DNA from: a virus
Length of the DNA stretch: 36,432 bases
Direction: 5' to 3' (one strand)
IMG/VR virus record: IMGVR_UViG_3300024518_002695
Span: 1-36,432 of that record
Shown here: positions 1 to 36,432 of the stretch, piece by piece
Layout: each line of letters begins with the position of its first letter
Position numbering within the stretch: the first letter of the stretch is position 1
The notes under the pieces: model-generated
The model's database searches: none
The model's input: only the letters and a program-made list of their open reading frames with translations
What the model was told of the DNA's origin: nothing
Made by a program: the position numbers and the translations under genes

Positions 1-126
1 GTACACCGAGAGGTATCTAAGCGTTGCAGAAAATTAGTGTTAATTAAATTCTTCGACGAGAACAAAGAGCTAGGTTTTGACCTAGCGGAAGATATTTTAG
101 AACGGTTTAACTCTGTTCATAAATAA
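1..126 (+). CDS. 3' end of DnaC-like helicase loader (partial, second copy)
   Basis: These bases are identical to 36291-36416 and encode the last 41 residues and stop codon of the helicase-loader gene at the right end. The copy is partial only because the window opens inside the gene of a circular or terminally redundant molecule. Identity stops exactly at the stop codon: the next base is A here and C at 36417, because the two ends continue into different downstream sequences (see the 577 bp insert). Confidence 0.9.
   Translation, partial: VHREVSKRCRKLVLIKFFDENKELGFDLAEDILERFNSVHK
104..126 (+). repeat. 23 bp direct repeat, left boundary of insert
   Basis: The same 23 bases occur at 104-126, 681-703 and 36394-36416. 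They encode RFNSVHK plus the stop codon, in frame, at the end of both the helicase loader and the 159-residue insert protein. The repeats bracket the 577 bp segment 127-703. Confidence 0.95.
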
Positions 127-188
127 ATACTAAATACCCCCCCCGTTAACTAGGGGAATCGCGTGACAGGGTTCGCGCATAATATGTA

Positions 189-219
189 TTGTATATCTAA
201 TATATATTGCTTACATTTG
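189..219 (+). promoter_or_regulatory. Bacteroidota-type promoter of the insert gene
   Basis: TTG at 189-191 is followed after 20 nt by TACATTTG at 212-219, an exact match to the Bacteroidota -7 element TAnnTTTG with normal spacing from a -33 TTG. Transcription would start at about 223-225, on the ATG at 224, giving a leaderless or nearly leaderless mRNA. Upstream, 127-180 holds a C8 run and short inverted repeats (CCCC/GGGG, CGCG/CGCG) of unknown role. Confidence 0.6.
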
Positions 220-223
220 ATGT

Positions 224-703
224 ATGAAAAAACAAATAGACATTGACGATTCGATAATCAAGGATTTAAAGATCGCTGCCGCTTGGAGAAACTTGGATTT
301 AAAAAACTTCATTCAAGAAGTGTTACAAGACGAAGCGGAGAAAAGCGCAATTTTTAATCAAAACATAAACGAGAGAACCGCGTGTGAATACTTAGATCCG
401 GTATTAAAAGAGTTTGAAAATATTAAGTTAAACAAATCAAAGTTGCAGTTAAAAGTATTTACAGAAGGCACTTTTGTTTATGAAATAAGTCATGACGGGT
501 GTACTCACGAAGTAAGCGTTATTAACAGCAATATGGACTTTTTTCATGAAATGACTATATCTGAAATACTATATAAAACACCTTTTTATTTTTCACATAG
601 AATATTTTACAATGATGATGAAAAAGAAAGCGAAGAAGTGTTTTGTTTTAGAATATTAGACACCAAGGATTGGAAACATAGGTTTAACTCTGTTCATAAA
701 TAA
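224..703 (+). CDS. Ribbon-helix-helix-like protein on insert
   Basis: A 159-residue protein. Residues 1-40 read like an Arc/CopG/MetJ ribbon-helix-helix domain: a short beta strand (KKQIDIDDSII) followed by two helices with the pattern KDLKIAAAWRNLDLKNFIQE. Such domains dimerise and bind tandem operator subsites. The remainder, an aromatic-rich acidic domain of about 110 residues, is not recognised. The last eight residues, HRFNSVHK, match the end of the helicase loader because the flanking repeat supplies them. It has its own promoter and is the only gene of the insert. Likely a regulator or an antitoxin-like protein; no toxin partner is visible. The domain assignment is from pattern only. 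Confidence 0.7.
   Translation: MKKQIDIDDSIIKDLKIAAAWRNLDLKNFIQEVLQDEAEKSAIFNQNINERTACEYLDPVLKEFENIKLNKSKLQLKVFTEGTFVYEISHDGCTHEVSVINSNMDFFHEMTISEILYKTPFYFSHRIFYNDDEKESEEVFCFRILDTKDWKHRFNSVHK
681..703 (+). repeat. 23 bp direct repeat, right boundary of insert
   Basis: This is the second copy of the 23 bp repeat, encoding the last residues and stop of the insert gene. The sequence right after it (704-719) also follows the third copy at 36394-36416. Confidence 0.95.
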
Positions 704-4199: not shown

Positions 4200-4249
4200 G
4201 TAACTGAATTGTGTATGGCATCGTTTTAATGTGCTATACACGTTGTTAC
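4200..4249 (+). repeat. Imperfect palindrome behind small gene
   Basis: The ends GTAAC and GTTAC are complementary. Inside, GTGTATGGCA pairs with TGCTATACAC over 10 bp (one G-U) around an 11 nt loop. It lies 6 bases after the stop of the 43-residue gene. Its architecture is like the two attC-like elements but its sequence is different. It could be a transcription-end structure or a degenerate cassette boundary. Confidence 0.5.
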
Positions 4250-4273
4250 CCTTAGTTTTAAAAAAGATTTAAT

Positions 4274-4951
4274 ATGACAGAACCAAATATAGAATTACTG
4301 AACCAAGATTGCTTGCTTTATATGAAGCAATGCGAGGATAAACAATTTGACTGGGCTATCGTAGACCCTCCTTATGGTATAGGCTTTGACGGACACCATA
4401 CAATAACAAAAGAAGGACACAAAGGCTTTAGTGCTAAAAAAGAATTACACGCAAAAAAAGACTGGGATAGTCAAAGACCGTCTGCTGAATATTTTACTGA
4501 ACTTCAAAGAATATCTAAAAATCAAATTGTGTGGGGTGGCAATTATTTTGCTGATTTATTACCACCAAAGAAAGGGTGGATTTTTTGGGATAAGAAAATA
4601 ACCAATGCAAATAATATGAACTTTAGTGATGGTGAACTTGCGTGGACAAGTAGTGATGGAATTTTAAGAAGGTTTACTTATGATTGGATAGGCTTTGGAT
4701 ATTTAAACAACCCACAAAAAGAGAAAAAAATACACCCGACACAAAAACCTGTACAGCTCTATGAATGGATATTAGATACTTATGTAAAAGAAGGAAGCAA
4801 AATAATTGACACGCATTTGGGAAGTGGAAGCATTGCGGAGGCTTGTTGGAATAGAAAATTTGATTTAGTAGGACTTGAAATTGATAAGGATTACTACACC
4901 AAAGCAAGCAAAAGACTTGAAGCCCATAAAAAACAACTAACCCTTTTTTAA
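4274..4951 (+). CDS. Amino-DNA methyltransferase (N6-adenine or N4-cytosine)
   Basis: A 225-residue protein that methylates an exocyclic amino group using S-adenosylmethionine. The catalytic motif IV is DPPY (residues 31-34). HPTQKPVQLYEW (154-165) precedes the cofactor-binding motif I, DTHLGSGS (179-186), which has the unusual H instead of the commoner PFxGSG. Order IV then I is that of the beta class. The middle (residues 40-150) would hold target recognition. An attC-like palindrome follows within ten bases. No restriction partner is present, so protection of phage DNA is likely. Confidence 0.9.
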   Translation: MTEPNIELLNQDCLLYMKQCEDKQFDWAIVDPPYGIGFDGHHTITKEGHKGFSAKKELHAKKDWDSQRPSAEYFTELQRISKNQIVWGGNYFADLLPPKKGWIFWDKKITNANNMNFSDGELAWTSSDGILRRFTYDWIGFGYLNNPQKEKKIHPTQKPVQLYEWILDTYVKEGSKIIDTHLGSGSIAEACWNRKFDLVGLEIDKDYYTKASKRLEAHKKQLTLF

Positions 4952-4960
4952 TATTAAGGG

Positions 4961-5021
4961 TAACAGGCGTATAAAATCAAGCGTTAGCGACTCGGAGAGT
5001 TGATTTTAATCGCGGTTAAGG
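4961..5021 (+). repeat. attC-like palindrome, copy A
   Basis: The 61 bases match copy B (32851-32911) with three differences. Ends TAAC and GTTAAGG resemble integron core boxes. Inside, GCG/CGC, TAAAATCAA/TTGATTTTA and ACTC/GAGT pair to make a long stem. A 9 nt bulge, GCGTTAGCG, sits on one side, as extrahelical bases do in attC sites. It lies behind the amino-methyltransferase gene. Confidence 0.7.
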
Positions 5022-6544: not shown

Positions 6545-6586
6545 GCGTTTTAATGCTCGTTTTAAAATTTAAAAATAAATCATGAA
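6545..6586 (+). repeat. 42 bp leader repeat, copy 2
   Basis: Identical to 1448-1489. Here CGAGC just upstream (6542-6546) pairs with GCTCG (6554-6558), making a small hairpin absent from copy 1. Further upstream is GGCGTTAGCC near 6512. The repeat ends in the start codon of the 81-residue gene. Confidence 0.85.
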
Positions 6587-29465: not shown

Positions 29466-30365
29466 ATGAATTGGTTATTAAGATATATAAAATCAAGAGT
29501 TGCAATAGCGTTCTCTGGGGGTGCAACTAAAATAGCGTTCATGGCTGGAGCATTGTTATGTTTAATAAGTTTAGGTATAATTCCAGTTGGTTTCATTGGA
29601 ACTAGTTCAGGTGGGATACTTGCTTTCTTCTCTGCTTTAGGGAGATATGATTTAATAAAAAAGTATATGCCCATTTATACATTAGAATTAATATTTGGTA
29701 AGAATATATCTAAATTTTATAATCAGGTAATTGGGGTGTTTTCACTTTTTAGGAAAGGTAGCATGTATGAATATAAAGGATTAGAAAAACTAATTAGGGA
29801 TTTGATTTCAGAAGAAGAATTCATTGAATACCAGCAAAAAAAAGGATCCCCATTTTGTTATATACATATAGCTGATGATAAAAGTTTGGTTGAAAAACAT
29901 GTTGATTTAAAGAAGGTGTCTTATCAGGAAGCTGTCAAGTCAGTAATCGCGTCTTGTTCAATACCTATATTTGTGCCCAGGGTTAAAATATTCAACTCTA
30001 GGTGGTATGATGGTGGTGTGATGAAGCATATAGCTTCTGAATGGTTGGTTGTTAACCATAGTAATGAGTTTGACAAATTGATAAGCATATATTCAAGATC
30101 AAACAACATTAAAGACTACGTTACTTATAAATTCATATCTAATCCCATTAAAAACATAGAACGTCAACTTTTAATCAAGAATATACTTAATAGTTTTGAT
30201 AATAGGCAAGACACTGACATTGCTTGCAAAAATAAAGGAATAGAGCATGTTTGTTTTTTCGCTCCAAATAAACTGCAGGAATCAACTTTTGATACTTCAA
30301 AAGAAGGGAATATTGAAATGTTTGAAAAAGGGAAAAGGGCGGTTAAGACAAGATTAGATGATTAA
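29466..30365 (+). CDS. Patatin-like phospholipase/acyl hydrolase
   Basis: A 299-residue enzyme of the patatin family, which cleaves acyl esters of lipids using a Ser-Asp dyad. It has the glycine-rich oxyanion segment AFSGGATK (residues 15-22), the nucleophile motif GTSSG (45-49, Ser47), the ASCSIPIF segment (162-169), and YDGGV with Asp182. A hydrophobic stretch (about 23-44) is part of the fold rather than a signal. It sits directly before the holin and endolysin, which hints at a role in breaking membranes during lysis. A tail-associated role is the alternative. Base usage (more AT) differs a little from neighbours, so transfer is possible. Confidence 0.9.
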   Translation: MNWLLRYIKSRVAIAFSGGATKIAFMAGALLCLISLGIIPVGFIGTSSGGILAFFSALGRYDLIKKYMPIYTLELIFGKNISKFYNQVIGVFSLFRKGSMYEYKGLEKLIRDLISEEEFIEYQQKKGSPFCYIHIADDKSLVEKHVDLKKVSYQEAVKSVIASCSIPIFVPRVKIFNSRWYDGGVMKHIASEWLVVNHSNEFDKLISIYSRSNNIKDYVTYKFISNPIKNIERQLLIKNILNSFDNRQDTDIACKNKGIEHVCFFAPNKLQESTFDTSKEGNIEMFEKGKRAVKTRLDD

Positions 30366-31985: not shown

Positions 31986-32035
31986 AAAATAAATTAGATA
32001 GTTCTTGCGTGGTTCTTAGATAGTTCTTATCATTG
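31986..32035 (+). promoter_or_regulatory. Promoter/operator repeat, copy 2 (early promoter)
   Basis: Three TAGTTCTT-like units (31999; 32010 with one change; 32021) are spaced 11 bp apart. TTG at 32005-32007 and TATCATTG at 32028-32035 are separated by 20 nt, close to the Bacteroidota consensus. The 44 bp core matches the copy at 2824-2867 with two differences. Transcription from here would enter the tRNA-like element and the replication block. Confidence 0.6.
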
Positions 32036-32049
32036 TTTAACGAATTAGT

Positions 32050-32580: not shown

Positions 32581-32853
32581 ATGAAAAAGACACTTTATAG
32601 AATAGCAAATCACTTCCTTAATAAGCAATTGGTTTCACATATTGTTATGCGCTTTCTAAGCGAGGAAAAGCGTGAGAAGATAGCAATAGAATCTATTAGG
32701 TCAAACTTTATGTTATTCGGGCATGATTGCCATGATATGACAGACGAGGAAATAAAAGAGGGCGTGAAGAACGTAGCTAAAAATATAGGAAGTTTTGGGT
32801 CTACAACAGAAGAGGCTGCAAAAGCATTTCGTTTGTTGGGAGATTGCGCCTAA
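32581..32853 (+). CDS. Small hypothetical protein
   Basis: A 90-residue basic, helical protein; an ATG at 32572 would add three residues. It ends with FGSTTEEAAKAFRLLGDCA, a tail I have seen in small Bacteroidota phage proteins of unknown function. The stop codon (TAA at 32851) is also the first base triplet of the attC-like palindrome, as in integron cassettes. Confidence 0.65.
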   Translation: MKKTLYRIANHFLNKQLVSHIVMRFLSEEKREKIAIESIRSNFMLFGHDCHDMTDEEIKEGVKNVAKNIGSFGSTTEEAAKAFRLLGDCA

Positions 32854-32911
32854 CAGGCGTATAAAATCAAGCGTTAGCGACTCGAAGAGTTGATTTTAAG
32901 CGCAGTTAAGG
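32851..32911 (+). repeat. attC-like palindrome, copy B
   Basis: The element matches copy A (4961-5021) with three differences. GCCTAAC at its left edge fits the integron core RYYYAAC and includes the stop of the upstream gene; GTTAAGG at the right differs from GTTRRRY only at the last base. Paired arms and a one-sided bulge are kept. Confidence 0.7.
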
Positions 32912-33639: not shown

Positions 33640-34257
33640 ATGGGAAATTTAAGCGAAAAAAGATTTGGAATGATTACGGGGTCAGAATGTCACGTTCTTT
33701 TTCCTAAAATATCAGCGAAAGTTGGGGTAACTACTTATGCTAAGAAGCTAGCAAAAGAGATTGTTTTTGGATGGCGTGACGAGGTTAATACGTGGCAAAT
33801 GGACCACGGTCACATGGGGGAGTCAGTAGCGCGTGAGTGGTTTATCAAAAATATAGATCCGGATTGTTTCCAGCCAGATTTTATTCAGTCTGGTAACTTT
33901 GGGGCTAGTGGGGATTTATTAACCTCTTTTGATTATGGGGTTGATTTTAAATGTCCTACTTCAATGGAAAAATGGCTTGAATATTTAACTGAGGGAATTA
34001 GCAACCAGCAATACTGCCAGGCTCAAATGTACATGCACCTTTACGGGTATGAAAAATGGAAAGTTTGTGCCTTTTTAGAGGAAACAAGCTTTATGAGTAA
34101 TAATGGGTTGGTTTACCCTATTGAGGAAAAAAATAGATGTATTCATGTTGATGTAGAAAAAGAAAAAGGATGGGGGGATTTATTAGAAGATAGGTCCATT
34201 GATTTAATTAGACAAAGAGATGAGTATGTGAAAATATACCAAGAAATCTCAAAATAA
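33640..34257 (+). CDS. YqaJ/lambda-exonuclease-type nuclease
   Basis: A 205-residue PD-(D/E)XK nuclease that would degrade one strand of double-stranded ends in recombination. Recognised are RFGMITGSECHVLFPK at the start, HGHMGESVAREWF (Glu61), FGASGDLLTSFDYGVDFKCP with Asp92, Asp102 and Lys104 as catalytic residues, and ISNQQYCQAQMYMHLYGYEK. No separate annealing protein is evident unless it is the previous gene. Confidence 0.88.
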   Translation: MGNLSEKRFGMITGSECHVLFPKISAKVGVTTYAKKLAKEIVFGWRDEVNTWQMDHGHMGESVAREWFIKNIDPDCFQPDFIQSGNFGASGDLLTSFDYGVDFKCPTSMEKWLEYLTEGISNQQYCQAQMYMHLYGYEKWKVCAFLEETSFMSNNGLVYPIEEKNRCIHVDVEKEKGWGDLLEDRSIDLIRQRDEYVKIYQEISK

Positions 34258-34723: not shown

Positions 34724-35395
34724 ATGACAGAAGGGAAAAAAAGCTTCATTCTGTATTCCGACCTAATACACACCTTTTCATATTTGACAAACGAGGACGC
34801 TGGTGCTGTTTTTAAATGGATTCTGGACTATGTTAACGAAAAAGGCCCAAGTCCCCTTGAAGGGCTACTACAAGCCGTGGCAGAGCCTATAAGGCAACAG
34901 CTCAATAGGGATCTTGCGAAGTATGACAAGTACATCGATAAACAAAAGGCAAACGGGGCAAAAGGAGGGAGGCCAAGAAAGAGCAAGGAAAAACCCAATA
35001 AACCCAAGCCTTTATTAAATAACCCAAGCGAACCCAAAAAAGCTGATAATGTTAATGATAATGATAATGTTAATGATAATGTTAATGATATAAAAAAGAA
35101 AGAGACCGTTTATCCTTTTGAATTATTTTGGAATGACTATGAGAAAAAAGTTGGTCGTGAGAAGTGCTTTACTAAATGGAAAAATATTTCAGAAAAAGAA
35201 AAGGTCTCGATAAAAGAAAATGTTTCGAAGTATGTAAAATCAACGCCTGATGTGAAATTCAGGAAAGACCCCGCAACCTACTTAAACGGGAAACATTGGA
35301 ACGATGAAATAATTACATCAACACCAGCGAGGGCACAAGTAAGAACCACGCCAAGGAATACAGGCGGGGATAAAGTATTTGAGGATCAACTATAG
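34724..35395 (+). CDS. Replication protein (DUF6291-like/initiator)
   Basis: A 223-residue protein. The N-terminal domain (1-75) has SFILYSDLIHTFSYLTNEDA and AGAVFKWILDYVNEKGPSP, typical of DUF6291-type replication proteins. The linker KANGAKGGRPRK leads to a repeated Asn/Asp/Val stretch (DNVNDNDNVNDNVND). The C-terminal domain has FELFWNDYEKKVGREKCFTK and DPATYLNGKHWND, as in phage initiators. It probably opens the origin and brings in the helicase loader encoded next; the two genes are adjacent. Confidence 0.8.
   Translation: MTEGKKSFILYSDLIHTFSYLTNEDAGAVFKWILDYVNEKGPSPLEGLLQAVAEPIRQQLNRDLAKYDKYIDKQKANGAKGGRPRKSKEKPNKPKPLLNNPSEPKKADNVNDNDNVNDNVNDIKKKETVYPFELFWNDYEKKVGREKCFTKWKNISEKEKVSIKENVSKYVKSTPDVKFRKDPATYLNGKHWNDEIITSTPARAQVRTTPRNTGGDKVFEDQL
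35044..35091 (+). repeat. GATAATGTTAAT tandem repeat, possible origin
   Basis: Within the replication gene, units of 6 bp (GATAAT or GTTAAT) are repeated about seven times. The DNA is extremely AT-rich and the protein becomes an Asn/Asp linker. Origins placed inside initiator genes with direct repeats are known (lambda O), so a replication origin here is a fair inference; no experimental sign is present. Confidence 0.45.
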
Positions 35396-35399
35396 AGTT

Positions 35400-36416
35400 A
35401 TGGATTACAAAGGATTTAAACAATTTGTGCAGTCGTATACCGAAGGTTTTGTTTTTGAGAACGAGGCGTTTTTATCCGATCTAGTGAATTATTTTTCAGA
35501 CGGCGATTCAACACACGATAAGAATAAAGGAATATTACTAAGAGGATCTGTTGGTGTTGGTAAAACATCAATGTTAAAGCTGATTCAGACATGGTTGCCA
35601 GCGGAAAGGAAATTCATGTATAATCCCGCTAATGAATTAGTAAGCCTTTTTAATTCGGAAGGTGATGCGGCGCTTAATGTTTACAAGAATACAAAGAGCC
35701 GCTTGTTTGATGATATAGGCGCGGAGGATCTAGGTAGGCATTATGGCAATAGTGTTGAGGTGGTTCAGAAAGTTATCTATGCTAGGTATGATTTATACAG
35801 GTCGCAAGGGATAAGGACACACTTTACAACGAACTTAGGAAATAAGGAACTAAAAAACCTATACGGGGATCGTGCTTATGACCGAATCAAAGAGATGGTA
35901 AACGTTGTTAATTGGGTGGGCTCAGAGTCAAAGCGTGGGGTTCATGATTTTTCAATTCGGCAACTTGGGGACCTTCCAAAAGTCGTAACAAAAGAAGAGA
36001 TTGAGAAGCTGAAACTATACGAGGTTAAACTTATCTGCGAAATATTTTACAGGATCAGGGGGTACTTTGATACGGCAGATTACAACATGATAAATATATT
36101 CTATGACACTTTGAAGGGGTTAGGGTATGTCCTCGGTGAATCAAGGGAGTTGCGAATGATTTACATGGAGCAAAGAGCTATCGAGATTGATAAGCACGGA
36201 TATTGGAGAACCAGAAATAAACGGGCTTTTTTAGATTACAAAGATAAAAAATTCATGAGCGTGAACAGGGACGCAATGAATCGGAACACAGTACACCGAG
36301 AGGTATCTAAGCGTTGCAGAAAATTAGTGTTAATTAAATTCTTCGACGAGAACAAAGAGCTAGGTTTTGACCTAGCGGAAGATATTTTAGAACGGTTTAA
36401 CTCTGTTCATAAATAA
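35400..36416 (+). CDS. DnaC-like helicase loader ATPase
   Basis: A 338-residue AAA+ ATPase. Walker A GSVGVGKTS (residues 49-57), Walker B LFDDIGAED (102-110) and the sensor/arginine-finger region with HFTTNLGNKEL and YGDRAYDRIKEM are present. It would load the host or a phage helicase at the origin. ATG 35400 is chosen over TTG 35379, which lies within the previous gene. The C-terminal 41 residues recur at 1-126. The stop codon is followed by two different sequences in the two copies. Confidence 0.9.
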   Translation: MDYKGFKQFVQSYTEGFVFENEAFLSDLVNYFSDGDSTHDKNKGILLRGSVGVGKTSMLKLIQTWLPAERKFMYNPANELVSLFNSEGDAALNVYKNTKSRLFDDIGAEDLGRHYGNSVEVVQKVIYARYDLYRSQGIRTHFTTNLGNKELKNLYGDRAYDRIKEMVNVVNWVGSESKRGVHDFSIRQLGDLPKVVTKEEIEKLKLYEVKLICEIFYRIRGYFDTADYNMINIFYDTLKGLGYVLGESRELRMIYMEQRAIEIDKHGYWRTRNKRAFLDYKDKKFMSVNRDAMNRNTVHREVSKRCRKLVLIKFFDENKELGFDLAEDILERFNSVHK

Positions 36417-36432
36417 CGCTGAAACTTTGAAT
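36291..36432 (+). repeat. Terminal redundancy and insert-free junction
   Basis: 36291-36416 equals 1-126 exactly. The last 39 bases, 36394-36432, equal 681-719. The right end therefore shows the helicase-loader 3' end fused directly to the sequence after the 577 bp insert. Confidence 0.9.
36394..36416 (+). repeat. 23 bp direct repeat at insert-free junction
   Basis: Third copy of the 23 bp repeat. On its left it is joined to the helicase-loader gene, as at 104-126; on its right to the sequence seen after 703. It represents the empty site. Confidence 0.95.

Follow-up and report, generated by a model that had tools for sequence, protein, structure and literature searches.

The window analysed here, an IMG/VR virus record, is 36,432 bases long; it covers a circle of 36,290 bases once and runs on for another 142 bases. 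Bases 1-126 are an exact duplicate of 36291-36416 at the opposite end of the contig; the record is thus a circle cut at the site of an insert, the left end of the contig showing that site occupied and the right end showing it empty. A physical terminal repeat of the phage was ruled out, because the 16 bases 3' of the repeat are not alike at the two ends. The virus, 36 kb in size, is a tailed phage of a Flavobacteria-like bacterium and has genes for terminase, portal, capsid, tape measure, endolysin and holin. The terminase is 53-60% identical to full-length homologues in IMG/VR and 51% identical to one in a Flavobacteriales MAG. All genes and repeat copies placed below by strand lie on the plus strand.

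The insert is bounded by a 23-bp direct repeat, GGTTTAACTCTGTTCATAAATAA, of which the contig holds three copies: the left copy at 104-126, the right copy at 681-703, and one at 36394-36416. No further copy was found in the contig with up to three mismatches allowed. The repeat unit is 577 bp and may be drawn as 127-703 or equally as 104-680; drawn in the first way, the optional segment consists of 554 bp of unique sequence and the right repeat copy, is present between 126 and 704, and is absent at 36416/36417. At the empty-site junction (36394-36432) the repeat is followed by the sequence of 704-719, giving a 39-bp exact match to 681-719, and this form is visible for only 16 bases beyond the repeat, at the extreme end of the contig. 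An occupied site at 104-703 and an empty site at 36394-36432 had both been reported by the first-pass annotation of this record, and the coordinates proved exact. The length of the repeat is far beyond chance: among direct repeats with copies no more than 1 kb apart the longest observed is 23 bp, against a maximum of 16 bp in 60 simulated first-order Markov sequences searched for direct repeats within 1 kb.

Two genes end in this repeat. The left copy forms the end of a DnaC-like helicase loader, an ATPase gene (35379-36416; phrog_50, E = 8e-20) whose 3' end is also read as 1-126, while the right copy supplies the C-terminus and stop of an ORF inside the insert (224-703). Both copies read RFNSVHK-stop in frame, and both genes are therefore intact, the loader in occupied and empty forms alike, as had been claimed from its last seven residues and stop. 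That the repeat lies over the last codons of the loader gene thus stands; the accompanying view that only one gene ends there does not, since the insert ORF takes the right copy as its own C-terminus. The next gene downstream in either form lies at 743-1042 (phrog_1273 by PHROGs match). The loader is approximately 30% identical to Flavobacterium phage ATPases, and at that distance the insertion site is not comparable across relatives. Neither form was found in any relative of the phage, and there is thus no second, independent instance of the empty or the occupied site; DNA similarity of the site to phages was limited to short A+T matches.

TTTG/TAnnTTTG is the established promoter consensus of Bacteroidota. 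A match to the pattern TTG-N20-TAnnTTTG, here TTG-N20-TACATTTG, lies at 189-219 and stops four bases 5' of the ATG of the insert ORF; the genome has six matches to the pattern, and no other of them is both intergenic and located 5' of an ORF. This predicted promoter agrees with the earlier claim that the insert has a promoter of its own, and the four-base spacing would give a leaderless or near-leaderless message. A dyad with a 12-bp stem overlaps the promoter and is a possible candidate operator; the fold of the whole insert leader is unexceptional (z = -1.46), and no terminator-like site was found on the plus strand of positions 1-1500.

The insert ORF encodes an orphan product of 159 aa. 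Searches of IMG/VR, GTDB genomes, phage and plasmid records and the PDB yielded no relatives, Pfam, PHROGs, NCBIfam and PADLOC gave no match, and the five matches returned by 395 genomes from a single bacterial class were at chance level. Its description as a ribbon-helix-helix (RHH) gene received no support from Pfam, NCBIfam, PHROGs, hhalign or AlphaFold2. The sequence pattern of the N-terminal 40 residues and the helix spacing make the label plausible: AlphaFold2 modelled the full-length product with a pLDDT of 41 and predicted helices at 9-21 and 26-39, a single sequence being a weak test. However, a second, shorter model is one long helix and hhalign returned 0.1% against a weak three-sequence RHH profile, and the label is for these reasons unproven. 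The insert has a GC content of 32%, compared with 37.6% for the genome, and this lies within the range spanned by the phage's other accessory genes; composition is thus uninformative as to foreign origin.

We propose, at slightly better than even confidence, that the insert represents a moron-like accessory gene which some members of the population carry and which recombination between the 23-bp repeats removes. The record itself shows the repeat, the two junctions, the undisturbed frames, the promoter match and the break of the contig at the insert, and we infer recombination between the repeats as the route. Under this proposal, some but not all of the phages sampled would possess the 577-bp segment with its own host-type promoter, and the two 23-bp copies would recombine during replication, by strand annealing (single-strand annealing) or RecA-type exchange. 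Recombination would remove the segment precisely without damage to the helicase loader or the gene that follows, and the assembler, having met both forms, would have broken the circular genome at the insert site. Loss is probably commoner than gain. Deletion alone does not account for the repeat at the end of the insert, and this counts against the proposal; a gene-end crossover during acquisition is one possible origin for the copy of the loader end that the insert carries.

Enzymes of the lambda-exonuclease/YqaJ type feed single-strand annealing, and the phage encodes a recombination nuclease assigned to this type at 33640-34257 (phrog_149, E = 1.5e-17), with a YqaJ score of 21.7 bits against a cut-off of 22 and the lambda-exonuclease family well under its cut-off. 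As judged from these matches, this nuclease could plausibly bring about annealing at short repeats and might assist the proposed loss of the segment; no annealing protein was identified in the phage.

The proposal requires that both forms existed in the sample, and the position of the contig ends bears on this. The cut in the contig lies no more than 142 bp from the insert site, an interval that makes up 0.4% of the circle, so that a random cut would fall there with a probability of 0.4%. In a graph of 127-mers the two forms would fork at the first base of the contig, and in a graph of 39-mers the empty form would rejoin the downstream path at the contig end, 36432. The k-mer arithmetic did not identify the assembler, as k = 127 accounts for the start and k = 39 for the end, and no single setting gives both. 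A 23-bp repeat does not by itself break an assembly at k >23, and a second form in the data is therefore the simplest cause of the break. It is possible, nonetheless, that all phages were occupied and that the empty junction is an artefact, produced by template switching during amplification or by a misjoin of the assembler. The empty form consists of just 16 bases at the extreme end of the contig, where the coincidence of 36432 with the 39-mer rejoin point would allow the contig end to be a low-k product; short direct repeats are classic chimera sites, and a C8 run and a hairpin lie 3' of the left repeat. Yet ordinary read lengths resolve a 23-bp repeat, and assemblers usually trim a lone chimera away as a tip, after which the occupied path would have closed the circle, whereas this contig breaks. 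We consequently regard an artefact as unlikely, although deserving of weight. Both junctions probably represent real DNA in the sample, and a true mixture of occupied and empty forms has, overall, a good probability, most of which falls to simple recombination and small shares to an att-type cassette and to phase variation.

The same anatomy could be read as that of a passive mobile cassette, in which the repeat, lying over the last codons of the loader, serves as att core and a tyrosine recombinase is supplied by the host or another element. A direct repeat that overlies a gene's 3' end with the frame restored, a precise single-copy empty site, 23-bp identity and an own promoter are all compatible with such a cassette. 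The first-pass annotation had suggested it as one of two readings, likening the site to att sites at gene ends, but this likeness has position alone in its favour: there is no att-like structure, the repeat itself closes the insert ORF, and there are no terminal inverted repeats. As had been stated, the insert holds no recombinase, the orphan ORF being its only content, and no recombinase or integrase was found among the approximately 42 main ORFs scanned, which comprise all but a few short ones. The repeat was not found in other IMG/VR contigs, nor the insert protein elsewhere in IMG/VR, phage and plasmid records and genomes, collections from which near-identical records may be left out; a second occurrence of insert or repeat was thus seen in none of the collections searched. 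Ordinary short-repeat recombination explains the same anatomy, and we consider a passive cassette improbable. Slightly more improbable still is its narrowest version, a minimal recombinase-free one-gene cassette of 577 bp that uses the loader 3' end as attachment site, with an integrase acting in trans and both frames restored in every state. A transposon was also considered and rejected, as comparison of the edges by eye revealed no inverted repeat and the orphan ORF lies alone inside, with no transposase.

Phase variation, with the insert moving reversibly in and out and so switching a regulator or the downstream genes, would gain something from the insert promoter, from which transcription could also extend into the gene at 743. 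Once excised, however, the DNA is not replicated, and re-insertion through 23 bp of homology would be rare; neither an invertase nor an integrase was found, and the RHH identity is unconfirmed. The idea of a phase-variable regulator, raised when the locus was first described, needs a reversible re-insertion for which we found no evidence, and we hold it to be very improbable.

Recombination between direct repeats may not be confined to this site. A 42-bp exact repeat occurs at 1448-1489 and 6545-6586, in each case over the leader and first codons of a different gene, and its two copies bracket 5,097 bp of accessory genes that include an HNH gene and two methyltransferases. Recombination between these copies would drop the 5.1-kb block, and a complete gene start would remain. 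This second pair supports the view that homology-flanked cargo, which needs no dedicated enzyme, is a general feature of the phage.

The genome also contains a 61-nt element, present at 4961-5021 and 32851-32911 with 95% identity, directly after or overlapping a gene stop. Both copies fold as bulged attC-like hairpins of the arrangement TAAC..GCG..UCS-like..stem..CGC.GTTA (z = -4.0 and -2.4). Together with a hairpin at approximately 4200-4250, the first copy would frame an adenine-methyltransferase-like gene (4274-4951) as an integron-like cassette; the best phage matches of this gene include Polaribacter phage P12002S and Tetrasphaera phage TJE1. Clusters of attC sites without an integrase have been reported in phages TJE1 and P12002L (PMC9892861), the latter a similarly named companion of P12002S. 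A motif like AACGTNNTTGTATATGG-TAGTG recurs in intergenic positions 3' of gene stops (1055-1075 and 1384-1410) and is also found in Polaribacter and Tenacibaculum phages (L040, 1350-1375; L041, 718-745 and 1495-1520); such motifs are possibly decayed attC-type or transcription-end elements.

Given that the phage carries attC-like hairpins elsewhere, we considered whether the 577-bp segment is an integron gene cassette at a secondary site. Besides the two 61-nt hairpins after gene stops, the start of the 23-bp repeat, GTTTAAC, fits the RYYYAAC box. Neither edge of the insert folds as an attC-like hairpin, however (z = -0.58 to 0.96), the second core box is absent, and integron insertion creates no 23-bp repeat. 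We disfavour this origin and assign it a negligible probability.

Several other features of the genome were recorded. A patatin-like phospholipase gene lies in the tail/lysis region at 29466-30365 (Pfam, E = 1e-19). A tRNA-like sequence at 32050-32177 matches Rfam RF00005 at 30.6 bits, barely above threshold; it has an interruption of approximately 55 nt near the anticodon loop, and ARAGORN calls no tRNA there. Directly 5' of it lies one copy (31986-32040) of a 55-nt intergenic repeat with three AGTTCTT-like units, the other copy of which (2824-2878, 87% identical) lies 5' of a gene. Tandem TGATAATGTTAA-type repeats at 35044-35091, within a replication-initiation-like gene (34724-35395), possibly mark an origin with iterons.

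If both forms are real, the gain or loss of an orphan gene in a natural phage population has been caught at base-pair resolution, and short repeats over gene ends are the evident route of turnover. Recombination-driven loss of a moron-like gene would then make the locus a concrete case of phage accessory-gene turnover without dedicated enzymes, rather than a new class of element, and the repeat-flanked design recurs in the same genome around the 5.1-kb methyltransferase block. The locus shares with islands inserted by tyrosine integrases at the 3' ends of genes a direct repeat over the 3' end and the restoration of the gene, but has no integrase, is tiny, and is without known relatives. As in phage morons, one gene accompanied by a host-type promoter of its own sits between two neighbours that are adjacent when the site is empty; morons, however, are usually found by genome comparison, whereas here both states occur in one assembly and the edges are a 23-bp exact repeat. 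Cyanophage S-PM2 likewise has coexisting forms with and without ORFan genes (PMC4503421), and is thus also a phage population mixed for the presence of orphan genes. In that case a spontaneous deletion removed 9.5 kb and 33 ORFs, which its authors attribute to mispackaging (PMC4503421), in contrast to the 577 bp, single ORF and flanking repeats found here. For repeats that favour gene shuffling, the nearest precedent is provided by the PeSL cassettes of T4-like phages, which consist of a promoter and a stem-loop between genes (Arbiol 2010 and Comeau 2014, as cited in PMC4503421). As they are described there, short repeated sequences serve as homology sites for gene shuffling in those phages as well; the repeat of the present locus differs from them in being coding sequence at the ends of genes, without a promoter.
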